From a bacterium (GTDB lineage Bacteria > Bacteroidota > Ignavibacteria > Kapaibacteriales > Kapaibacteriaceae), in NCBI GenBank assembly GCA_024711065.1, contig JANJTN010000007.1, positions 1 through 33,595 of the forward strand: 33,595 nt of DNA, read 5' to 3'. Under the pieces are notes generated by a model. The model searched no databases. It was not told where the DNA came from and worked only from the letters and a program-made list of their open reading frames with translations. Position numbers and translations under genes: made by a program. The stretch's first letter is position 1; every line of letters starts with the position of its first letter. Positions 1 to 33,240 of the stretch are shown one piece after another.

Positions 1-1554
1 CCGCACCACGTCACGCGGAAGTACATCGACCAATTCAAGGGCAAGTTCGACATGGGTTGGGATGCCTATCGCGAACAAGCCTTCGAGCGTCAGAAGCAAC
101 TCGGCGTGGTTCCCGCCGGCACGAAACTTACCCCCCGGCCCAAGGAGCTTCCGGCTTGGGAGTCTCTGAGTGCCGATCAGAAGAAGCTGTTCGCTCGCAT
201 GATGGAGGTCTTTGCCGGCTTTACCGCCGAAACGGATGCCGAAGTGGCGCGCTTGCTCGAGGTGGTGCGCCAGCAGCCGGATGCCGACAACACCATGATC
301 ATCTTCATGGTGGGTGATAACGGCGCATCGGCTGAAGGGGGCTTGGTAGGACTCGTGAACGAGAACTCGTTCTTTAACGGTGTTGATGAAAAACTGGAAG
401 ACAACCTGAAGGTGATGGACGAGCTGGGAGGCCCCAAGCACTTCAATCACTTCCCGGCCGGATGGGCCTGGGCCATGAACACGCCGTTCCAATGGACCAA
501 ACAGATCGCCTCGCACCTTGGCGGCGTCCGCAACCCGGTGGTGATCTCCTGGCCGAACAAGATCACCGATCGTGGTGGAGTACGTTCGCAGTTCGGTCAC
601 GTGATCGACATCGCTCCCACGATCTATGAGGCTGCCGGTATCGATCCGCCGAAGGCGTTCAATGGCATCGACCAGCGTCCCATCGAGGGGGTCAGCATGA
701 TCTATGCCTTCCAGGACGCGAAGGCCACGGAGCGCCACACTCAGCAGTACTTCGAGATGTTCATCAATCGGGGACTGTATAGCAACGGCTGGTGGGCTGC
801 CTCTCGGGCTAACATCCCGTGGGAGGGAGCTGCCGCCGAAGCGGATCCGGACGCGATGAGTTGGGAGCTCTATCACCTGGACGAGGACTTTTCACAGGCC
901 GTTGATCTGGCCAGCAAAGAACCCCTTCGACTTCGTCAGCTTCAGGACCTCTGGTGGGCCGAGGCAGCTCGGTACAACGTGCTGCCAATGGACGGCCGCA
1001 AAACGGTTCGCCTGAGTGCGGAACTCCAGGGGCGCCCAACGCCAACGGCCGGACGTACTTCCTTTGTGTACTATCCCGGTACGGTAGCTCTGCCATCTGG
1101 CTCGGCGCCTCCGCTCCTGAACAAGTCCTTTACGATCACGGCATACGTGGTCACGGGTAAGCAAAGAACGTCCGGTGCGGTCTTCTCGCTGGGCGGTGGC
1201 GATGGTGGGTATGGCGTGTACGTCGAAGACGGCAAGCCCGTGTTCGCCGCGAACTTCCTGGGACGGAAGATCACCCGCGTGCGCTCTTCCAAAGCGCTTC
1301 CTGCCGGAGACGCCGAGATCAAGGCGGTATTCGATTACGAGGGGGGAGGGCTCGGCAAGGGTGGAACCATGTCCCTCTTTGTGAACGGCTCCAAGGTCGG
1401 CGAAGCCAAGGTCGAACAAACCCAGGCGATCACCTTGGGCTTGGGCGGAGCCCTGGATATTGGACTGGACACCGGATCGCCCGTGGACGACCTCTATACG
1501 CCACCCTTCCGCTATACAGGCACGATCGACCGGGTTCAGATCGACCTGAAGTAG
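1..1554 (+). CDS. Arylsulfatase, C-terminal part (5' end outside window)
   Basis: This is the 3' part of a sulfatase of the alkaline-phosphatase superfamily, which hydrolyses sulfate esters. The reading frame is open from base 1, and the residues before the first Met (PHHVTRKYIDQFKGKFD) already match the family, so the gene is cut by the window edge rather than starting at 52. Visible family motifs are VGDNGASAEGG (the metal-site DNG region) and PVVISWPNKITDRGG, followed by FGHVIDIAPTIYEAAGI. The catalytic CxPxR cysteine that becomes formylglycine lies upstream and cannot be seen. The last 160 or so residues, from about TSFVYYPGTVALPSGSAP, form a beta-rich concanavalin-like jelly-roll often found at the end of this arylsulfatase subfamily. 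A strong hairpin follows the stop. The natural substrate cannot be told from sequence, and export cannot be judged without the N-terminus. Confidence 0.9.
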   Translation, partial: PHHVTRKYIDQFKGKFDMGWDAYREQAFERQKQLGVVPAGTKLTPRPKELPAWESLSADQKKLFARMMEVFAGFTAETDAEVARLLEVVRQQPDADNTMIIFMVGDNGASAEGGLVGLVNENSFFNGVDEKLEDNLKVMDELGGPKHFNHFPAGWAWAMNTPFQWTKQIASHLGGVRNPVVISWPNKITDRGGVRSQFGHVIDIAPTIYEAAGIDPPKAFNGIDQRPIEGVSMIYAFQDAKATERHTQQYFEMFINRGLYSNGWWAASRANIPWEGAAAEADPDAMSWELYHLDEDFSQAVDLASKEPLRLRQLQDLWWAEAARYNVLPMDGRKTVRLSAELQGRPTPTAGRTSFVYYPGTVALPSGSAPPLLNKSFTITAYVVTGKQRTSGAVFSLGGGDGGYGVYVEDGKPVFAANFLGRKITRVRSSKALPAGDAEIKAVFDYEGGGLGKGGTMSLFVNGSKVGEAKVEQTQAITLGLGGALDIGLDTGSPVDDLYTPPFRYTGTIDRVQIDLK

Positions 1555-10532: not shown

Positions 10533-12440
10533 ATGTATCGAATCATCGTGATCGTGTTGACTGTTGGTGTGTTGGCGTGTGCCTCGGCGTCGGCCTGGGT
10601 CTATCCCGAGCATCGTGATATCGCAGTGGCGGCCGTGCTCAAGCTCGATTCCGCGCGTCGGGTCCACCTGGACTCCCTTTGGAGTTGGGCGCGCATCGGG
10701 CATGAAACCCGGCTTCCCTCGTCCATCGTGATCCCCGAGCTTCCCGAACAGCCCAACTACATCGACTGGGGTGCCTGGCCAGCCATTGGTGGTGATCACT
10801 CGTGTTCACCGTCACAAATGCTGGAGACGGTGTTGAACACCGAGTGGATCCTGGATGTGGCCCGTATCACCGAGCACTTCAAGCGTGAGCTTCTGGCAGC
10901 CAAGCATCAGGCCAAGCGGCTAAACGCGTTACGCGATCAGGATCTGCAGCTGCAGCGGGCCGACCCGGAGTATGCTACCCGAGCAGGTTCGAACAACGTG
11001 CATTTCCTTCTTGCCCGAACATCCGTATCCACCTCTCCGCGAGTCTATCTCGAGGGTAGCCTTTCGCAGGGTGGCGAGATCAACGCGCTTGCCGTGTATA
11101 TCTGGTACCACTATCGTGCCATGGCCAAGATCTCACAGCTTCGATCGCCCGGGCTGACCGAGGTCCAGCGGAATCAGATCGCCCTCGCAGCGCTGGCCGA
11201 CGAAGCCTTCGGCATCCACTTTCTGGAAGATGTGTATGCTGCCGGTCATGTGGCCGGTACATGGGGTAATGCCTCATTGCGCAAGGGCACACACGACTAC
11301 TACAACGAGCACGGATACGAAACGCACACATGGGCTGGAAAGCCCGTGGTCCTGATGGGCGATGCCTATATGCGCCCTGAAGACATTGAAGCCCCTGCCC
11401 ATGCGGTGCGCATCAGTCTTGAGCAATTCGTGGATGCTTTCCGGGGAGTAGATCCCTACGCCGGCCACGAGTTCAATGACCGCGAGATCGAGGGGCTGTT
11501 CATGACCGAGCCCGACACCTTGAACGTGTGCCAGAACAACGATATCCCCGGCAAGATCGCCAGCAGTGAACTGATGCCACAGTACGTTTCCGTGATCCAG
11601 CACACGCCCATGCCGGCACTCAAGGCCGGATATGGCGAACTGCCTCGGTTCCGGACCGAACTCGGAGGTTTCATCGGTATCGCACCATTCGTCCGTGGCG
11701 CGGGGTGGGACGGCGGGTTCGACCCAGTGCAGACCTCTGCCCTCGGAATCGCGTCGCTCGGCATGAACCTGCGACTGGGTCTGGGACTTGATGGCGTAAC
11801 GAGCGAAGCCGGGGATGGATTGGTGTTCATCGAATTCGGCATCGCGCACGACAACGCGTCGACCGCAAATTTCTCTACCGATTCAGCATTGGCGGACTAT
11901 GGCGATGTCTTGGCTGCGATCCCATCGAGGTCCTCCTTCACCACACGGATCCGCATGCCGTTCTACGTGATCCCGGGTGATCTGATCCTTGGAGCGCTGC
12001 TGATCGCCCCGTTCTCGCTGCAAACGTATACGCAGATGGCCGTTGTAGCCGGCAATGGCGGGGTGATCCCCTGGCAGTCGGGCATTGCCACCGACTTTGG
12101 ACGCTTCCAGTTCATTCTCGGTCGGGAGGTCGGTGTGAATTTTTACGGTTTTGGCAGCGGCAGCCAGAAGATTCTGGTACCGTATCAGGACGACGAATCG
12201 AACCAACTGGCTGAACTGCTGGATCTGCGATCCATCCAGGTAGAAGCTCCGATCGTGGAGTGGCGTCCATTCCGCACGTTCTCCGTGGACCAGAGCTCAA
12301 GCATGGTGGTGCAGTTCTATGGCGCTGCCGACATCCCGGTGTATTGGAAGAGCCATCTCACGCCACCCACGACCTATGACCTGAAGACACGCTGGGGCCT
12401 TGGTGTGAGGGTCGCCTTCGACTGGAGATACTACTATTGA
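10533..12440 (+). CDS. Zinc phospholipase C/P1-nuclease-like protein with C-terminal barrel-like region
   Basis: A 635-residue exported protein. ATG 10533 is chosen because GGGGG lies just before it and the product begins with a good signal peptide (residues 1-21, ending ASA). Cleavage there leaves Trp22 as the mature N-terminus, and His27 lies five residues later, exactly the W1/H6 spacing of P1 nuclease. Further candidate zinc ligands are Asp78 and His89, His157, and the triad His229-x3-Asp233-x5-His239 (HFLEDVYAAGH), with His254 and Asp255/Glu259 after it. This is the trinuclear zinc pattern of zinc-dependent phospholipase C and S1/P1 nucleases, enzymes that hydrolyse phosphodiesters. From about residue 370 the chain is Gly- and aromatic-rich with alternating patterns and ends in WRYYY, like an outer-membrane barrel. 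Substrate is unknown. It overlaps the convergent gene by 7 nt. Confidence 0.7.
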   Translation: MYRIIVIVLTVGVLACASASAWVYPEHRDIAVAAVLKLDSARRVHLDSLWSWARIGHETRLPSSIVIPELPEQPNYIDWGAWPAIGGDHSCSPSQMLETVLNTEWILDVARITEHFKRELLAAKHQAKRLNALRDQDLQLQRADPEYATRAGSNNVHFLLARTSVSTSPRVYLEGSLSQGGEINALAVYIWYHYRAMAKISQLRSPGLTEVQRNQIALAALADEAFGIHFLEDVYAAGHVAGTWGNASLRKGTHDYYNEHGYETHTWAGKPVVLMGDAYMRPEDIEAPAHAVRISLEQFVDAFRGVDPYAGHEFNDREIEGLFMTEPDTLNVCQNNDIPGKIASSELMPQYVSVIQHTPMPALKAGYGELPRFRTELGGFIGIAPFVRGAGWDGGFDPVQTSALGIASLGMNLRLGLGLDGVTSEAGDGLVFIEFGIAHDNASTANFSTDSALADYGDVLAAIPSRSSFTTRIRMPFYVIPGDLILGALLIAPFSLQTYTQMAVVAGNGGVIPWQSGIATDFGRFQFILGREVGVNFYGFGSGSQKILVPYQDDESNQLAELLDLRSIQVEAPIVEWRPFRTFSVDQSSSMVVQFYGAADIPVYWKSHLTPPTTYDLKTRWGLGVRVAFDWRYYY

Positions 12441-13969
12441 TCGATCGCGGTCGAGAGCGCTACCTGACGGAATCGCCTGCGGTCTCGTTTGGCGATCAAC
12501 CAGGCTGTGAACCCGAACATCTCGGTGGGTGGCTGCGCGTTGGATGGCCGATCAATGTTCTCAAGCCGTTCCAACGTCGTACGGAATAACTTCTGGCGCG
12601 CGCTGCCGGGCGCAACACCGAAGTACCGGGCCATCAACGACAGGAACTCCTCTTCGGCGGGGTCGAACACCGTACCCTTGAGCAATCGCCGTTGGCGGCG
12701 CACCATGCTCTGCACCACGGACTCGTGGTCTTGCTCTACATGGCACAGGATCAACAAGTACGCTGCTGCCCTGTGAACGTCGGCCCGCATCGATGCCGGA
12801 TACTCGTCCACGCGCTGAAGCCAGCGGATCGCATCGCGATACCGACCGTCTGCGAAAGCCAACAGGCCAAGGTTGAACCAGGCCGCAATGCCGATCTCGG
12901 TGGGGCCATCGGACTCATGCTGCTCGATCAGTGCAAGGAGTCCGCTCAGGATCGGCTGTACCGAAGCCAGGTCCAGCTGGCTGGCTGCAAGAAAGATCTC
13001 CAGATTCAAGTACTGACCGAGCACGTTCGCGCGGACGCCAGGGGTCAGGGGAGCCTCCTCGCCAGACCAGTAAGCTCGCAGCGTCTCGCGGTACGGGATC
13101 GCCTCAGCCGGACGTCCGAGTACGCACAAGCGAAGTGCCACACTGTGCAGCAGATTGAGCCACATGGAAAGATTGGCTCGCCGGAACGACTCGTTGGATT
13201 CGATGATCGCCAGGCGCTCTTTGTCCAGGTCCAGCGCCCCCAATCGATCCACATCAAAGAAGAGGGCATTCAGGCTGCGCAAGCGAAGCCAGGAGTGATG
13301 GGCCGTGAGGGTCGCAAAGGGCTGCAACGCCGAGGCCTGCCGGACCAGGTCTCGAGCGATCGCCAGCGCCGCCGGATTGCTGGACTGTCCATAGCGCTCC
13401 ACCAATGCCTGCATCCGCTGCTCCAGCGCCTGCAGTCGGGCGGCTTCCAATGCGCGCTGCGCCTCGATCACAATGGGGTCCTGTTCATATGCCGACGTAG
13501 GCTCAACAGCCAGGACACTACTGCGCTCTGCTTGCATCAGACCATGTGTCGCCAGCAGTCGCAACGCGTGGTTCTCGGTCAGGGCCGAAGCCTCCACGGC
13601 GGCTCGCATCCTCCGATCACCGAGGCGGGCAAGCCCCCTTCCCAGCAAGAAGACCCCATCCAGATACGCCGTTAGCGCTTCGCGCTGGGCCGTACGCCCG
13701 GCATGGAACTGGCGCATCGCTCGCAGGATCACCGTGAGCAGTTCGCGTTTGGCTTCGGGTAGCCGCTGTACGAATCCCCGGCCCTCGAACCGCTGCTTGA
13801 TCCGCGCCTCGTTGTACTCCGACTGGGCCGCGATCGCATCAAAGAGTAGCTCGGACTGGTTGACCTCGCCAAGGACATGACGTCGAAGTTCCTGCTTGAC
13901 ATAGCGCCGCTCTGCCTGACTAAGGCTTGCAATAAGAGCATGCAGATCAGAATCAGGTGTTCTTGACAT
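12434..13969 (-). CDS. Uncharacterised alpha-helical repeat protein
   Basis: I do not recognise this protein. From ATG 13969 it has 511 residues (523 if the in-frame ATG at 14005 is used; neither has a clear Shine-Dalgarno). It has no signal peptide or membrane span. The sequence is almost wholly helical, rich in Leu, Ala, Arg and Gln, with helix pairs such as AAWFNLGLLAFADGRYRDAI and HRAAAYLLILCHVEQDHES that look like degenerate tetratricopeptide units. The N-terminal part (LHALIASLSQAERRYVKQEL) is highly charged. It is probably a cytoplasmic scaffold or regulatory protein, but no catalytic motif is visible. The gene is divergent from the cytochrome c gene and overlaps the end of the phospholipase-like gene by 7 nt on the other strand. 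A GAAGGGGGCT word lies within it at 13632-13641. Confidence 0.7.
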   Translation of the reverse strand: MSRTPDSDLHALIASLSQAERRYVKQELRRHVLGEVNQSELLFDAIAAQSEYNEARIKQRFEGRGFVQRLPEAKRELLTVILRAMRQFHAGRTAQREALTAYLDGVFLLGRGLARLGDRRMRAAVEASALTENHALRLLATHGLMQAERSSVLAVEPTSAYEQDPIVIEAQRALEAARLQALEQRMQALVERYGQSSNPAALAIARDLVRQASALQPFATLTAHHSWLRLRSLNALFFDVDRLGALDLDKERLAIIESNESFRRANLSMWLNLLHSVALRLCVLGRPAEAIPYRETLRAYWSGEEAPLTPGVRANVLGQYLNLEIFLAASQLDLASVQPILSGLLALIEQHESDGPTEIGIAAWFNLGLLAFADGRYRDAIRWLQRVDEYPASMRADVHRAAAYLLILCHVEQDHESVVQSMVRRQRRLLKGTVFDPAEEEFLSLMARYFGVAPGSARQKLFRTTLERLENIDRPSNAQPPTEMFGFTAWLIAKRDRRRFRQVALSTAIDQ

Positions 13970-24429: not shown

Positions 24430-24461
24430 AAGCCCCCTTCCATCGGGATGGAAAGGGGCTT
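24430..24461 (-). terminator. Hairpin after aconitase made of two inverted word copies
   Basis: Bases 24430-24444 pair with 24447-24461 with a single C-A mismatch. The arms contain AGCCCCCTTC (24431-24440) and GAAAGGGGCT (24451-24460), the two forms of the dispersed word, in inverted order. It lies 22 nt after the aconitase stop. On the minus strand it is followed by TTTGTGGTTGTG, a weak T-run, so it may terminate aconitase transcription or serve another purpose. Confidence 0.5.
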
Positions 24462-24482: not shown

Positions 24483-26720
24483 TTACCGGCCGGCGATCAG
24501 ATTCAACGCACTGCCGGCTCGGAACCAGCCGATCTGCTGGTCGTTCATGGTGTGCTTGGCCTGAATGGAGTCCGTGGATCCATCCGCATGGCTGATCGTG
24601 ATCGTCAGTTCTGCGCCTGGTGCGAGTTGGTCGATGTCGATCGACAGGCGGTCATCTTCGCGGATCAGTTCGTAGTCTGCCGGGTTGGCGAACGTAAGCG
24701 GCAGCATACCCTGCTTCTTCAGGTTGGTCTCGTGGATGCGAGCAAAGCTCTTCACCAGGATCACCTTGCCACCGAGGAAGCGTGGCTCCATAGCGGCGTG
24801 CTCACGGCTGGATCCTTCGCCATAGTTCTCGTCTCCCACCACCACCCAATAGGCACCACGAGCCTTGTAATCACGGGCTACAGCAGGGACTTCGTTGTAC
24901 TCGCCAGTAAAGGTATTCTTGATGCTGTTGGCGGTGTCGTTCACGTAGTTGATCGCACCAATGAACATGTTGTTAGAGATGTTGTCCAGGTGTCCGCGGA
25001 AACGCAGCCACGGTCCGGCCATGGAGATGTGGTCGGTGGTGCACTTGCCTTTGACCTTCAGGAGCAGCGGCATGTTCACGTACTCTTCCTTCTTCGGAGC
25101 CTTGAAGGCCTCGAGCTTTTGCAGGCGGTTGCTGTCCGGTGCGATCACCACATCTACGCCGCTGCCATCCGCAGCGGGTGCGACAAAGCCATCGGGATCG
25201 GGTACAAAGCCCCCTTCCGGAAGTTCTTTACCGACCGGCGCTTGCAGCATCACACCATCGATCGGATCCTTGATGAAGTTGTGCGTGAGCTTGCCGGCAA
25301 GTACGAATCCGGCAACTGTTTCCGGCGAGGCTACGAAGGCATGCGTTTCCTTGATGCCATCGTTACGGCCGGTGAAATTGCGGTTGAAGCTAGTGATGAT
25401 GGAGTTCTTGTCTCCGGCCTGCACGTCGTGGCGCTTCCACTGTCCGATGCACGGGCCGCAGGCGTTGGCAAGGACCACGCCGCCAACAGACTCGAGTTTC
25501 TCGAGGATGCCGTCGCGCTCGATGGTAGCGCGCACTTGCTCCGAGCCTGGCGTGATGGTGAACTCGCTTTTGGCAGCCAAGCCGTGCTCGGATGCGAACG
25601 CGGCGATCTCGGCCACGCGGCTCATGTCTTCGTAGGACGAATTGGTGCACGAACCGATCAGGCCCACGCGCAGTTCTTCGGGCCAGTTGTTGTCCTTGAC
25701 GGCCTTGACGAACTCCGAGAGTTCCATGGCGCGATCCGGGGTGAACGGACCGTTGATGTGGGGCTCCAGGGTGTTCAGATCGATCTCGATCACCTGGTCG
25801 TAGTAGGCTGCCGGGTTGGCCACCACGTCGGCATCCGGCTGCAGGTGCTCGGCTACGGTGCGAGCCAGGTCGGCAACGTCGTTGCGTTCGGTGGAGCGCA
25901 GATAGCGATCCATCGACTCGTCGTACGGAAACACGGAGGTGGTAGCGCCGATCTCGGCGCCCATGTTGCAGATCGTACCTTTACCCGTGGCGCTGAACGA
26001 TGCGGTTCCGTCGCCGAAGTACTCCACGATCGCACCGGTTCCACCTTTCACGGTCAGGATCCCGGCCAGCTTCAGGATCACGTCCTTGGGCGAGGTCCAG
26101 CCGCTCATCTTGCCCGTCAGTTTCACACCGATCACCTTGGGCATCTTGAGCTCCCACGGCATGCCGGCCATCACGTCTACCGCATCGGCACCGCCAACAC
26201 CGATGGCGATCATTCCCAAGCCCCCTGCATTCGGCGTATGAGAGTCCGTGCCGATCATCATACCGCCCGGGAAGGCGTAGTTCTCAAGGACCACCTGGTG
26301 GATGATCCCGGCACCCGGTTTCCAAAAGCCGATGCCATATTTCCGGGAGACGGATCCGAGGAAGTCGAACACTTCCTTGTTCTCGTCCAGCGAGTTGGAC
26401 AGGTCGGTCTTGGCTCCGTGCTCGGCGCGGATCAAGTGGTCGCAATGCACCGTGCTGGGTACAGCCACCTGTGGGATCCCCGCGCTCATGAACTGCAGCA
26501 GGGCCATCTGGGCCGTTGCGTCCTGCATGGCTACGCGGTCCGGGTTGAAATTCACATAGGCCTTGCCGCGCTCATGCGGTGCCGACGGCAGCTCATCCAT
26601 GTGGGCGTAGAGGATCTTCTCGGTCAGGGTAAGGGGCTTGCCAACGATGCGGCGCGCGTTGCTGATCTTGTCTGGCAGATTCGCGTAGACCCGCTGGATC
26701 ATATCGAGGTTCTGTGTCAT
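24483..26720 (-). CDS. acn: Aconitate hydratase (mitochondrial-type)
   Basis: Aconitase, 745 residues, a TCA-cycle enzyme that interconverts citrate and isocitrate through a [4Fe-4S] cluster. Length and N-terminus ([20 protein letters not shown]) fit the mitochondrial-type family rather than the longer AcnA. Cluster cysteines are in [11 protein letters not shown] and in [10 protein letters not shown] (CxxC). [24 protein letters not shown] and the C-terminal swivel-domain segment [19 protein letters not shown] are further active-site regions. ATG 26720 is chosen at the family N-terminus; the open frame extends 21 codons further and would overlap vapC. The gene starts only 19 nt after the vapC stop on the same strand. 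No strong Shine-Dalgarno is seen. Confidence 0.96.
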
Positions 26721-26739
26721 ACGTGTCACTGTATGGTAT

Positions 26740-27129
26740 TCAATAGGATGGTTTGAGGTATCGTACGTTCGGTAGCCCATCAAAATCGCGGTCCTGAGTC
26801 AGCAGGACCGCTTGATGAGCTGTGGTAGCTGCGTAGACCATCGCATCGGCCATGGCGAGTTTACGATCATTTCGGATCTGTGCTGCAGCAACGGCTCGTT
26901 CGGCTGTGAGTGGGTCCACGAGTTGCCCGCGCATATTCGCTACCACCACCCGCACCATGTCCTCGCCGATGCGGCGTTCCACCGCCAGCGACACTTCATA
27001 GATGCAGACGGTAGGAACAATGATGGCATGCTTGCGCATGGGTTCGATCACCAGATCGCGTATGCGAGTATTACCCAGGTAGAACTCCACCCAGATCGAG
27101 GAATCCATGACGATGGGTTGATCGATCAT
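26740..27129 (-). CDS. vapC: VapC-type PIN-domain toxin
   Basis: A 129-residue PIN-domain ribonuclease, the toxin of a type II toxin-antitoxin pair. The acidic Mg2+-binding residues are in place: Asp in [12 protein letters not shown], Glu in [12 protein letters not shown], Asp in [11 protein letters not shown], and Asp in [10 protein letters not shown] near the end. VapC toxins cut tRNA or rRNA when not held by VapB; the target here is unknown. The ATG overlaps the antitoxin's stop as TGATG, so both are translated together. The gene ends 19 nt before the aconitase start, so aconitase may be partly read from the vapBC promoter. Confidence 0.9.
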
Positions 27130-28812: not shown

Positions 28813-28846
28813 GAATTGCTCTCAAAGTTGATGGGAAGGGGGCTTG

Positions 28847-31713: not shown

Positions 31714-33240
31714 TTAGCGATTCAGACGCTGGAGGACGGCTTCCGCCGCCAGTCGGCCCGACCGGGCTCCGCCATTCATGTAGCCGCGAAACTGGTCGTC
31801 GGCATGCTCTCCGATGAACATCAGTGTATCGCTATTGCTTCGCTCTACGCAGCCATAGAACCGCGTCCACTGTCCTGGACCGAAGCTGGAATAGCTGGCT
31901 TTGATGAAGGGGGCTTGTGGCCAGTTCATCCGCTCGAAGCGCAGAGAGGGGTGGTCTTGGGCTGATGGCCAGACGGAGGCCAGGGCGTCCAGCAGCACGG
32001 CTCGTGCCTCCTGCTTGTCCATACCCATCACCATTCGGCAGGTGCTACCGCCGGAGTACATGGTCATCCCGGCCCCCTGCACGCCTTGCATCGCCGTATT
32101 GTCCCAGGCCAGTTGGATCGGTAGATCCGTATACACGACGCCCGAGGCACCCAGGTCGTGCCAGAACGGACGGTCGAACCCCACAAGGGTCTTGGCATTT
32201 GCGCCATAGTGCAGCTCCCGGATCATCTCCTTGAGACGCGTTGGCAGGTGGACCTCCATGGGGATGGTGCGCAACACCGAAAACGGGATCGCGCAGATCA
32301 CCACATCGGCAAGCACGTCCACCGTGGTGCTGCCGGTTCTGAACTGTAGAGCGTACCGATCACCAACCGCTTGTAAACGCTCCAGACGATGCCCGTAGGC
32401 AACTCTGTGCGCCAGCTCACCGGCGATCCGATCGGCGATCTGTTGATTGCCGCCTCGAACCTTGAAGCGCTCGTCGCTCTCGCCATACAATCGAAACGCA
32501 CCACTGCCAAGCTCGGTACCGATCATGGAAATGAAGTTCAACGCCGACTGTTCGCCCAGTTCCAGACCATGCTCGGTCACAAAGGCAGACTCCAGGAACG
32601 CCCGGAACCACCCGGTAAGTCCGAGCTCGGCAAAGTAGGCTTCGGTAGACATCTCGTCCAGTATTCGCGCTGGGCTTCCACTCAGATCGGCCAGGTCCAG
32701 CGGAAGCCGTTCCAGATCCGCTTCGATCCGTGGGACGTATGGCAACAGTGCCGTCACGAGGTCGGCTTCGGTATACGCAACTCCCTCTACATAAAAGGTG
32801 TCAGACAGGTCGGCATACGGCTGTTCCGTCAGATCGATCAGGTGTAAGCCATACTCGGCAGCAAGCGTAAGGATGTCCGTGTGCACCGTGTCGATGAACT
32901 CTCCGCCAAGCTCGGTCACAGCCCCCTTCACCAGATAGTCGGAGACCGAGAGCATGCGACCGCCAACGCGCCCCTGTGCTTCGTAAAGGGTGACCTCTGC
33001 TCCGCCCCTTGCCAGGTCGCGTGCGGCCACCAGTCCGGCGATGCCGCCGCCGACCACAGCGATCCGCGTAGTGGTATCGGTCGGAAGGTCTTGCGGGCGT
33101 GTGCACGAGGCGATCACGGGGGGCAGGGCCAGCGCTGATCCGGCAAGCAGGCTGGTGCGCAGGAACGAACGTCTCGACGCGTCGGTGCCGGCAGATCGCA
33201 CGGCCCGACGCAACAAGCGCATCAGCGGGGTTCTCGACAT
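31714..33240 (-). CDS. Tat-exported flavin monoamine oxidase-like protein
   Basis: A 508-residue FAD-dependent amine oxidase. The N-terminus holds a twin-arginine signal (SRRSFLRTS at 22-30, then a hydrophobic stretch ending VIASC, so a Tat lipoprotein is possible). RIAVVGGGIAGLVAARDLAR followed by VTLYEAQGRVGGRM is the FAD-binding Rossmann signature with the GG-doublet. ELGGEFI, the C-terminal FIGEHADDQFRGYMNGGARS (FAD ribityl/flavin contact) and GYMNGGARSGRLAAE match the family. It would oxidise an amine or a related substrate in the periplasm with release of H2O2; the substrate is unknown. Two GAAGGGGGCT words lie inside it. The next gene upstream on the same strand is the OmpA-domain protein, whose stop is 33 nt away. 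Confidence 0.9.
   Translation of the reverse strand: MSRTPLMRLLRRAVRSAGTDASRRSFLRTSLLAGSALALPPVIASCTRPQDLPTDTTTRIAVVGGGIAGLVAARDLARGGAEVTLYEAQGRVGGRMLSVSDYLVKGAVTELGGEFIDTVHTDILTLAAEYGLHLIDLTEQPYADLSDTFYVEGVAYTEADLVTALLPYVPRIEADLERLPLDLADLSGSPARILDEMSTEAYFAELGLTGWFRAFLESAFVTEHGLELGEQSALNFISMIGTELGSGAFRLYGESDERFKVRGGNQQIADRIAGELAHRVAYGHRLERLQAVGDRYALQFRTGSTTVDVLADVVICAIPFSVLRTIPMEVHLPTRLKEMIRELHYGANAKTLVGFDRPFWHDLGASGVVYTDLPIQLAWDNTAMQGVQGAGMTMYSGGSTCRMVMGMDKQEARAVLLDALASVWPSAQDHPSLRFERMNWPQAPFIKASYSSFGPGQWTRFYGCVERSNSDTLMFIGEHADDQFRGYMNGGARSGRLAAEAVLQRLNR

Follow-up and report, generated by a model that had tools for sequence, protein, structure and literature searches.

The window analysed here is positions 1 to 33,595 of contig JANJTN010000007.1 (GCA_024711065.1), forward strand, from a 2.56-Mb draft genome of the Kapaibacteriaceae in 216 contigs (hereafter G000; other numbered genomes are members of the same family). 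On its minus strand lies a gene for aconitate hydratase, identified by its matches to Pfam PF00330 and PF00694, and downstream on the same strand follows a gene for a protein with TPR and adenylate/guanylate cyclase domains. A Por secretion tail is also encoded in the window; together with the aconitase neighbours it points, by inference, to the Bacteroidota group. Between the two genes, starting 21 nt past the aconitase stop, is a hairpin whose stem is built from two opposed copies of the word AGCCCCYTTC, which is dispersed throughout the genome (Table 1).

Table 1. Features of the window, with positions counted from its first nucleotide
Positions	Strand	Feature	Sequence
24430-24461	-	Hairpin of two opposed word copies; 15-bp stem, 2-nt loop; putative intrinsic terminator of aconitase	AAGCCCCCTTCCATC-GG-GATGGAAAGGGGCTT
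24430-24444		First arm of the stem	AAGCCCCCTTCCATC
24447-24461		Second arm of the stem	GATGGAAAGGGGCTT
24431-24440	+	Word copy, left arm	AGCCCCCTTC
24451-24460	-	Word copy, right arm, read on the minus strand	AGCCCCTTTC
24441-24450		Stem extension plus loop	CATC/GATG, loop GG
24483-26783	-	Aconitate hydratase gene	
24485-24483	-	Aconitase stop codon	TAA
22476-24329	-	TPR plus adenylate/guanylate cyclase domain protein; start uncertain, 24272 or 24329	
334-344	-	Single word copy	AAGCCCCCTTC
13631-13641	+	Single word copy inside a gene	AAGCCCCCTTC
25207-25217	+	Single word copy inside the aconitase gene	AAGCCCCCTTC
28835-28845	-	Single word copy	AAGCCCCCTTC
31906-31916	-	Single word copy	AAGCCCCCTTC

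The hairpin behind aconitase

An earlier note, made from the sequence alone, described two forms of the word standing face to face 10 nt apart just after the aconitase stop, with a single mismatch in the stem, and this observation is confirmed. The two 15-nt arms form a GC-rich stem with 14 of 15 pairs around a loop of two nucleotides. One correction is needed: the mismatch, C.A on the plus strand, is a U.G wobble on the minus strand, which is the strand of the aconitase transcript, so that the RNA stem is unbroken. Predicted folding is correspondingly stronger on the sense than on the antisense strand (dG -23.5 against -20.1 kcal/mol), and with flanks included it reaches -29.4, with a z score of -4.15 against shuffled sequences. 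Stems with 14 of 15 pairs and a 2-nt loop occur only 7 times in the 0.77 Mb of this genome that we examined, more rarely than would suit a chance origin. The U-run is indeed weak, as the note had remarked (CUUUGUGGUUGUG; tract after the stem GGGGGCUUUGUGGUUGUG), and a generic terminator scan, which requires five T in eight, does not list the site.

We examined the region behind the aconitase stop in 17 relatives. Word-type hairpins are found in G003, G015, G016, G018 and G021, some with one arm changed by wobble, and the G021 hairpin is followed by a run of six T. Seven further genomes (G005, G008, G009, G010, G011, G013 and G017) carry hairpins of unrelated sequence at the same place, whilst G001, G002, G004, G007 and G019 show neither a word hairpin nor a clear alternative in the first 150 nt. 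Across the six word-type stems, including that of G000, 76 of 78 pairs of the 13-bp stem are standard, with one position changed on both sides (U-A to A-U) and several wobble changes; pairs were counted by position from the ends, since a MAFFT alignment of the hairpins misplaced a gap. This is evidence from a small sample of six sequences, but we read it as a conserved terminator position into which the word has been drafted. A hairpin in G004 (contig C1, 348689) resembles that of the window but is not its orthologue, as the aconitase gene of that genome is at 1808898. In the same 3′ regions, tandem GGGCGAGACGCCGTCTCGCCCC hairpins were seen in G003 and a triple repeat of GTTCGTCACCCCGAGCGTAGTCGAGGGGC in G019.

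The dispersed word and its inverted pairs

AGCCCCYTTC occurs 767 times in G000, 386 times forward and 381 times in reverse, against 8 occurrences of its reversed control. In the 0.77 Mb examined the consensus proved wider, (C)(A)AGCCCC[C/T]TNC[C/A]; the core AGCCCCYT occurs 690 times, or one per 1.1 kb, and AGCCCCYTNC 546 times, or one per 1.4 kb, which scales to about 1800–2300 copies in the genome. The main forms are 6- to 40-fold above the expectation of an order-4 Markov model. About 89% of copies lie in genes, as called with a simple hexamer model of our own, and they use all six reading frames, which rules out a protein-coding origin of the word. The word is enriched in 20 of 22 other genomes of the family and at background in the sampled genomes of 38 other families of the phylum, and it keeps its GC-rich form in G006, where the 0.38 Mb examined has 46% GC. 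It is at background in G008 and G013, of genus g4 of the family, so the trait was lost there or arose after the split of that genus. Other over-represented words in the examined part of G000 are TAGCGTCTAG (43 copies against 0.1 expected), TAGCGTTTAG and runs of ATTCCCC, which are probably tandem or intergenic repeats. In the 0.40 Mb of G004 examined, about 159 copies of a repeat with GGCTACTAGAGCAGAT and CTTTGAAAGT words probably represent a long CRISPR array on contig C1.

The earlier note drew on the inverted pairs of uptake sequences that act as terminators in Neisseria and Haemophilus, whilst leaving the terminator role open, and proposed listing all inverted pairs of the word within 30 nt and asking whether they follow stop codons. 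The result is a split answer. With the exact word there are five convergent and three divergent pairs, against 1.8 expected of each, and with the refined word there are 17 convergent pairs against about 10 expected by chance (p=0.026). Of the 17, 15 could be inspected. Six of these lie between genes just after a stop, although one overlaps an uncertain gene start, compared with 8–11% of words (p 0.001–0.003), and all six have stems that continue beyond the word. The other nine lie in genes or overlap a gene end and mostly lack such an extension; these look like chance pairs. Separately, hairpin-forming words are about five times more frequent between genes (7 of 56) than in genes (15 of 630; Fisher p=0.001). 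A CC(A/G)T../GATGG extension similar to that of the aconitase hairpin recurs in three other word hairpins of the genome (C153, C155 and C209). The note's interpretation is thus only partly supported: further inverted pairs exist and the subset with extended stems follows stop codons, but word terminators are few and inverted pairing is not a systematic terminator device here, and the resemblance to an uptake sequence is unproven.

Taken together, these data make it most likely, and we hold it with fair confidence, that the hairpin is the intrinsic transcription terminator of aconitase. In this view the word is maintained for its own reason, most likely as a DNA-exchange signal, for uptake or recombination, that is read in one strand direction only, and where a terminator stem was needed a word pair could supply it. 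The analysis establishes the stem and its place after the stop, the recurrence of word-type hairpins behind aconitase in six family genomes with pairing kept, the enrichment of hairpin-forming words between genes, the density and family restriction of the word, and its strand-wise spacing. That transcription ends at the hairpin is inferred from sequence alone, and so is any role of the word in DNA exchange, whether by preferential uptake of DNA that bears it or by attenuating a nuclease and stimulating recombination. On present evidence a 3′ hairpin that protects against exonucleases cannot be excluded. It is very unlikely that the hairpin is a chance pair of a dense word without function of its own: the total number of pairs is close to chance and pairs inside genes lack stem extension, but this stem continues beyond the words, lies 21 nt after a stop, and has word-type counterparts behind aconitase in five relatives with pairing kept.

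Strand-wise spacing and candidate functions

Neighbouring copies of AGCCCCYT tend to point in opposite directions. They share the same orientation in 206 of 632 cases in G000 (p=1e-18), 60 of 171 in G004 and 91 of 240 in G006, which is 34% of 1043 pairs when pooled (p=1e-24). A general avoidance of close direct repeats does not account for this, as 127 control 7-mers gave 53.5% same-oriented neighbours, with a minimum of 46.5%. Same-strand pairs are depleted within about 1.2 kb, three-fold below 100 bp, and recover at about 1.3 kb, whereas opposite-strand pairs are not depleted. Regular spacing on each strand alone is not sufficient either, since a simple simulation of strand exclusion gave 42% same-oriented neighbours rather than the 33% observed in G000, so that some attraction of opposite copies also seems needed. 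Convergent pairs do exceed expectation 1.4- to 1.6-fold at 100–600 bp in G000, although no such excess is seen at the same distances in G006. These observations could suit a chromosome-organising site, a nucleoid or loop anchor bound by a protein that prefers oppositely oriented pairs, but we consider this unlikely, as there is no candidate protein and known anchor sites are far sparser. One exception to the alternation is a cluster of GAGCCCCCTGCGA copies in direct orientation at positions 11185–11780 of one stretch of G000 (L138).

By density, dispersion in both orientations, lineage restriction, location in genes in all frames and terminator use, the closest match to the word is the uptake sequences of Neisseria (DUS) and the Pasteurellaceae (USS), likewise short non-palindromic words at about one per kb, some of whose opposed pairs form hairpins at gene ends (PMC7811141). 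The sequence and the phylum are different, however, and hairpin pairs are far fewer, with about six seen after stops compared with 109 close pairs in H. influenzae 86-028NP (PMC7811141). The inner-membrane channel ComEC is present in 21 of 23 family genomes including G000, but also in the word-less genus g4. A profile search with TIGR01420, which covers the ATPase and not the minor-pilin receptor, found nothing in G000, and no PilT-type or related secretion ATPase passed the cut-off in any of the 23 genomes, with a single weak match of 56 residues in G017, whilst 13 of 14 control genomes gave a hit. Uptake without pili is possible: Riemerella, a genus of the Bacteroidota, transforms without pilus homologues (PMC8459023), and R. 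columbina is reported to prefer its own DNA (PMC7965970), although no comparable word is known there and the k-mers listed in that study are A/T-rich runs. The present family resembles Riemerella in having ComEC without detectable pilus machinery. The Haemophilus receptor is reported to act irrespective of orientation (PMC1939737), and a receptor of that type would not be expected to produce spacing strand by strand. We therefore regard a classical uptake sequence, recognised on duplex DNA in either orientation, as unlikely, whilst an uptake-type signal of any mechanism remains a tentative possibility at somewhat less than even odds.

A Chi-type site, read on one strand by a translocating AddAB/RecB-type helicase-nuclease, would explain why each direction of travel needs its own regularly spaced copies, and the word is, like Chi, dispersed and over-represented, with one strand G-rich (GNARGGGGCT). 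The RecB-family nuclease domain PF12705 is found in all 23 family genomes, including the word-less G008 and G013, and one AddB-like match lies far below the NCBIfam cut-offs. Published candidate Chi motifs are, however, required to be polarised along the chromosome (PMC8022716), and here neighbours alternate, orientation does not follow the GC skew of the contigs (r=0.04), and contig orientation is under-dispersed. The word is also longer and degenerate, and denser than Chi in E. coli, which occurs once per 5 kb (PMC8022716). A Chi-type function is accordingly unlikely, and we retain an uptake-type or other strand-read exchange signal as the leading idea, without assigning the word to DUS, USS or Chi.

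Of the papers that hold one of the letter strings of the word, those examined are on unrelated subjects and none concerns a dispersed repeat, and no paper was found that joins Kapabacteria and uptake sequences. Even spacing of USS (Karlin) and the absence of orientation bias are described (PMC1939737), but alternation is not reported in the papers that we read. Uptake-type words of this density are best known from Neisseriaceae and Pasteurellaceae, both with pilus-based uptake (PMC7811141), and a word of the same density in an unrelated family that lacks detectable pilus ATPases would show that such signals arise with another machine. It is possible, though doubtful on present evidence, that the word represents a new kind of genome-wide DNA-exchange signal in a family without detectable type IV pili, read on one strand only and with its own exclusion zone of about 1.2 kb on each strand, so that neighbouring copies alternate in direction and inverted pairs are secondarily used as terminators. 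Strand-by-strand spacing is a property that can be measured from genome sequence alone, in Haemophilus, Neisseria and E. coli as well as here, and it would separate orientation-blind from strand-directional readers without any experiment.

A different dispersed word, CCTTGCCRCC, is present in 84 copies in the 0.40 Mb of G008 examined. It was considered as an alternative dialect of the main word, which G008 lacks, but its copies do not alternate in orientation.
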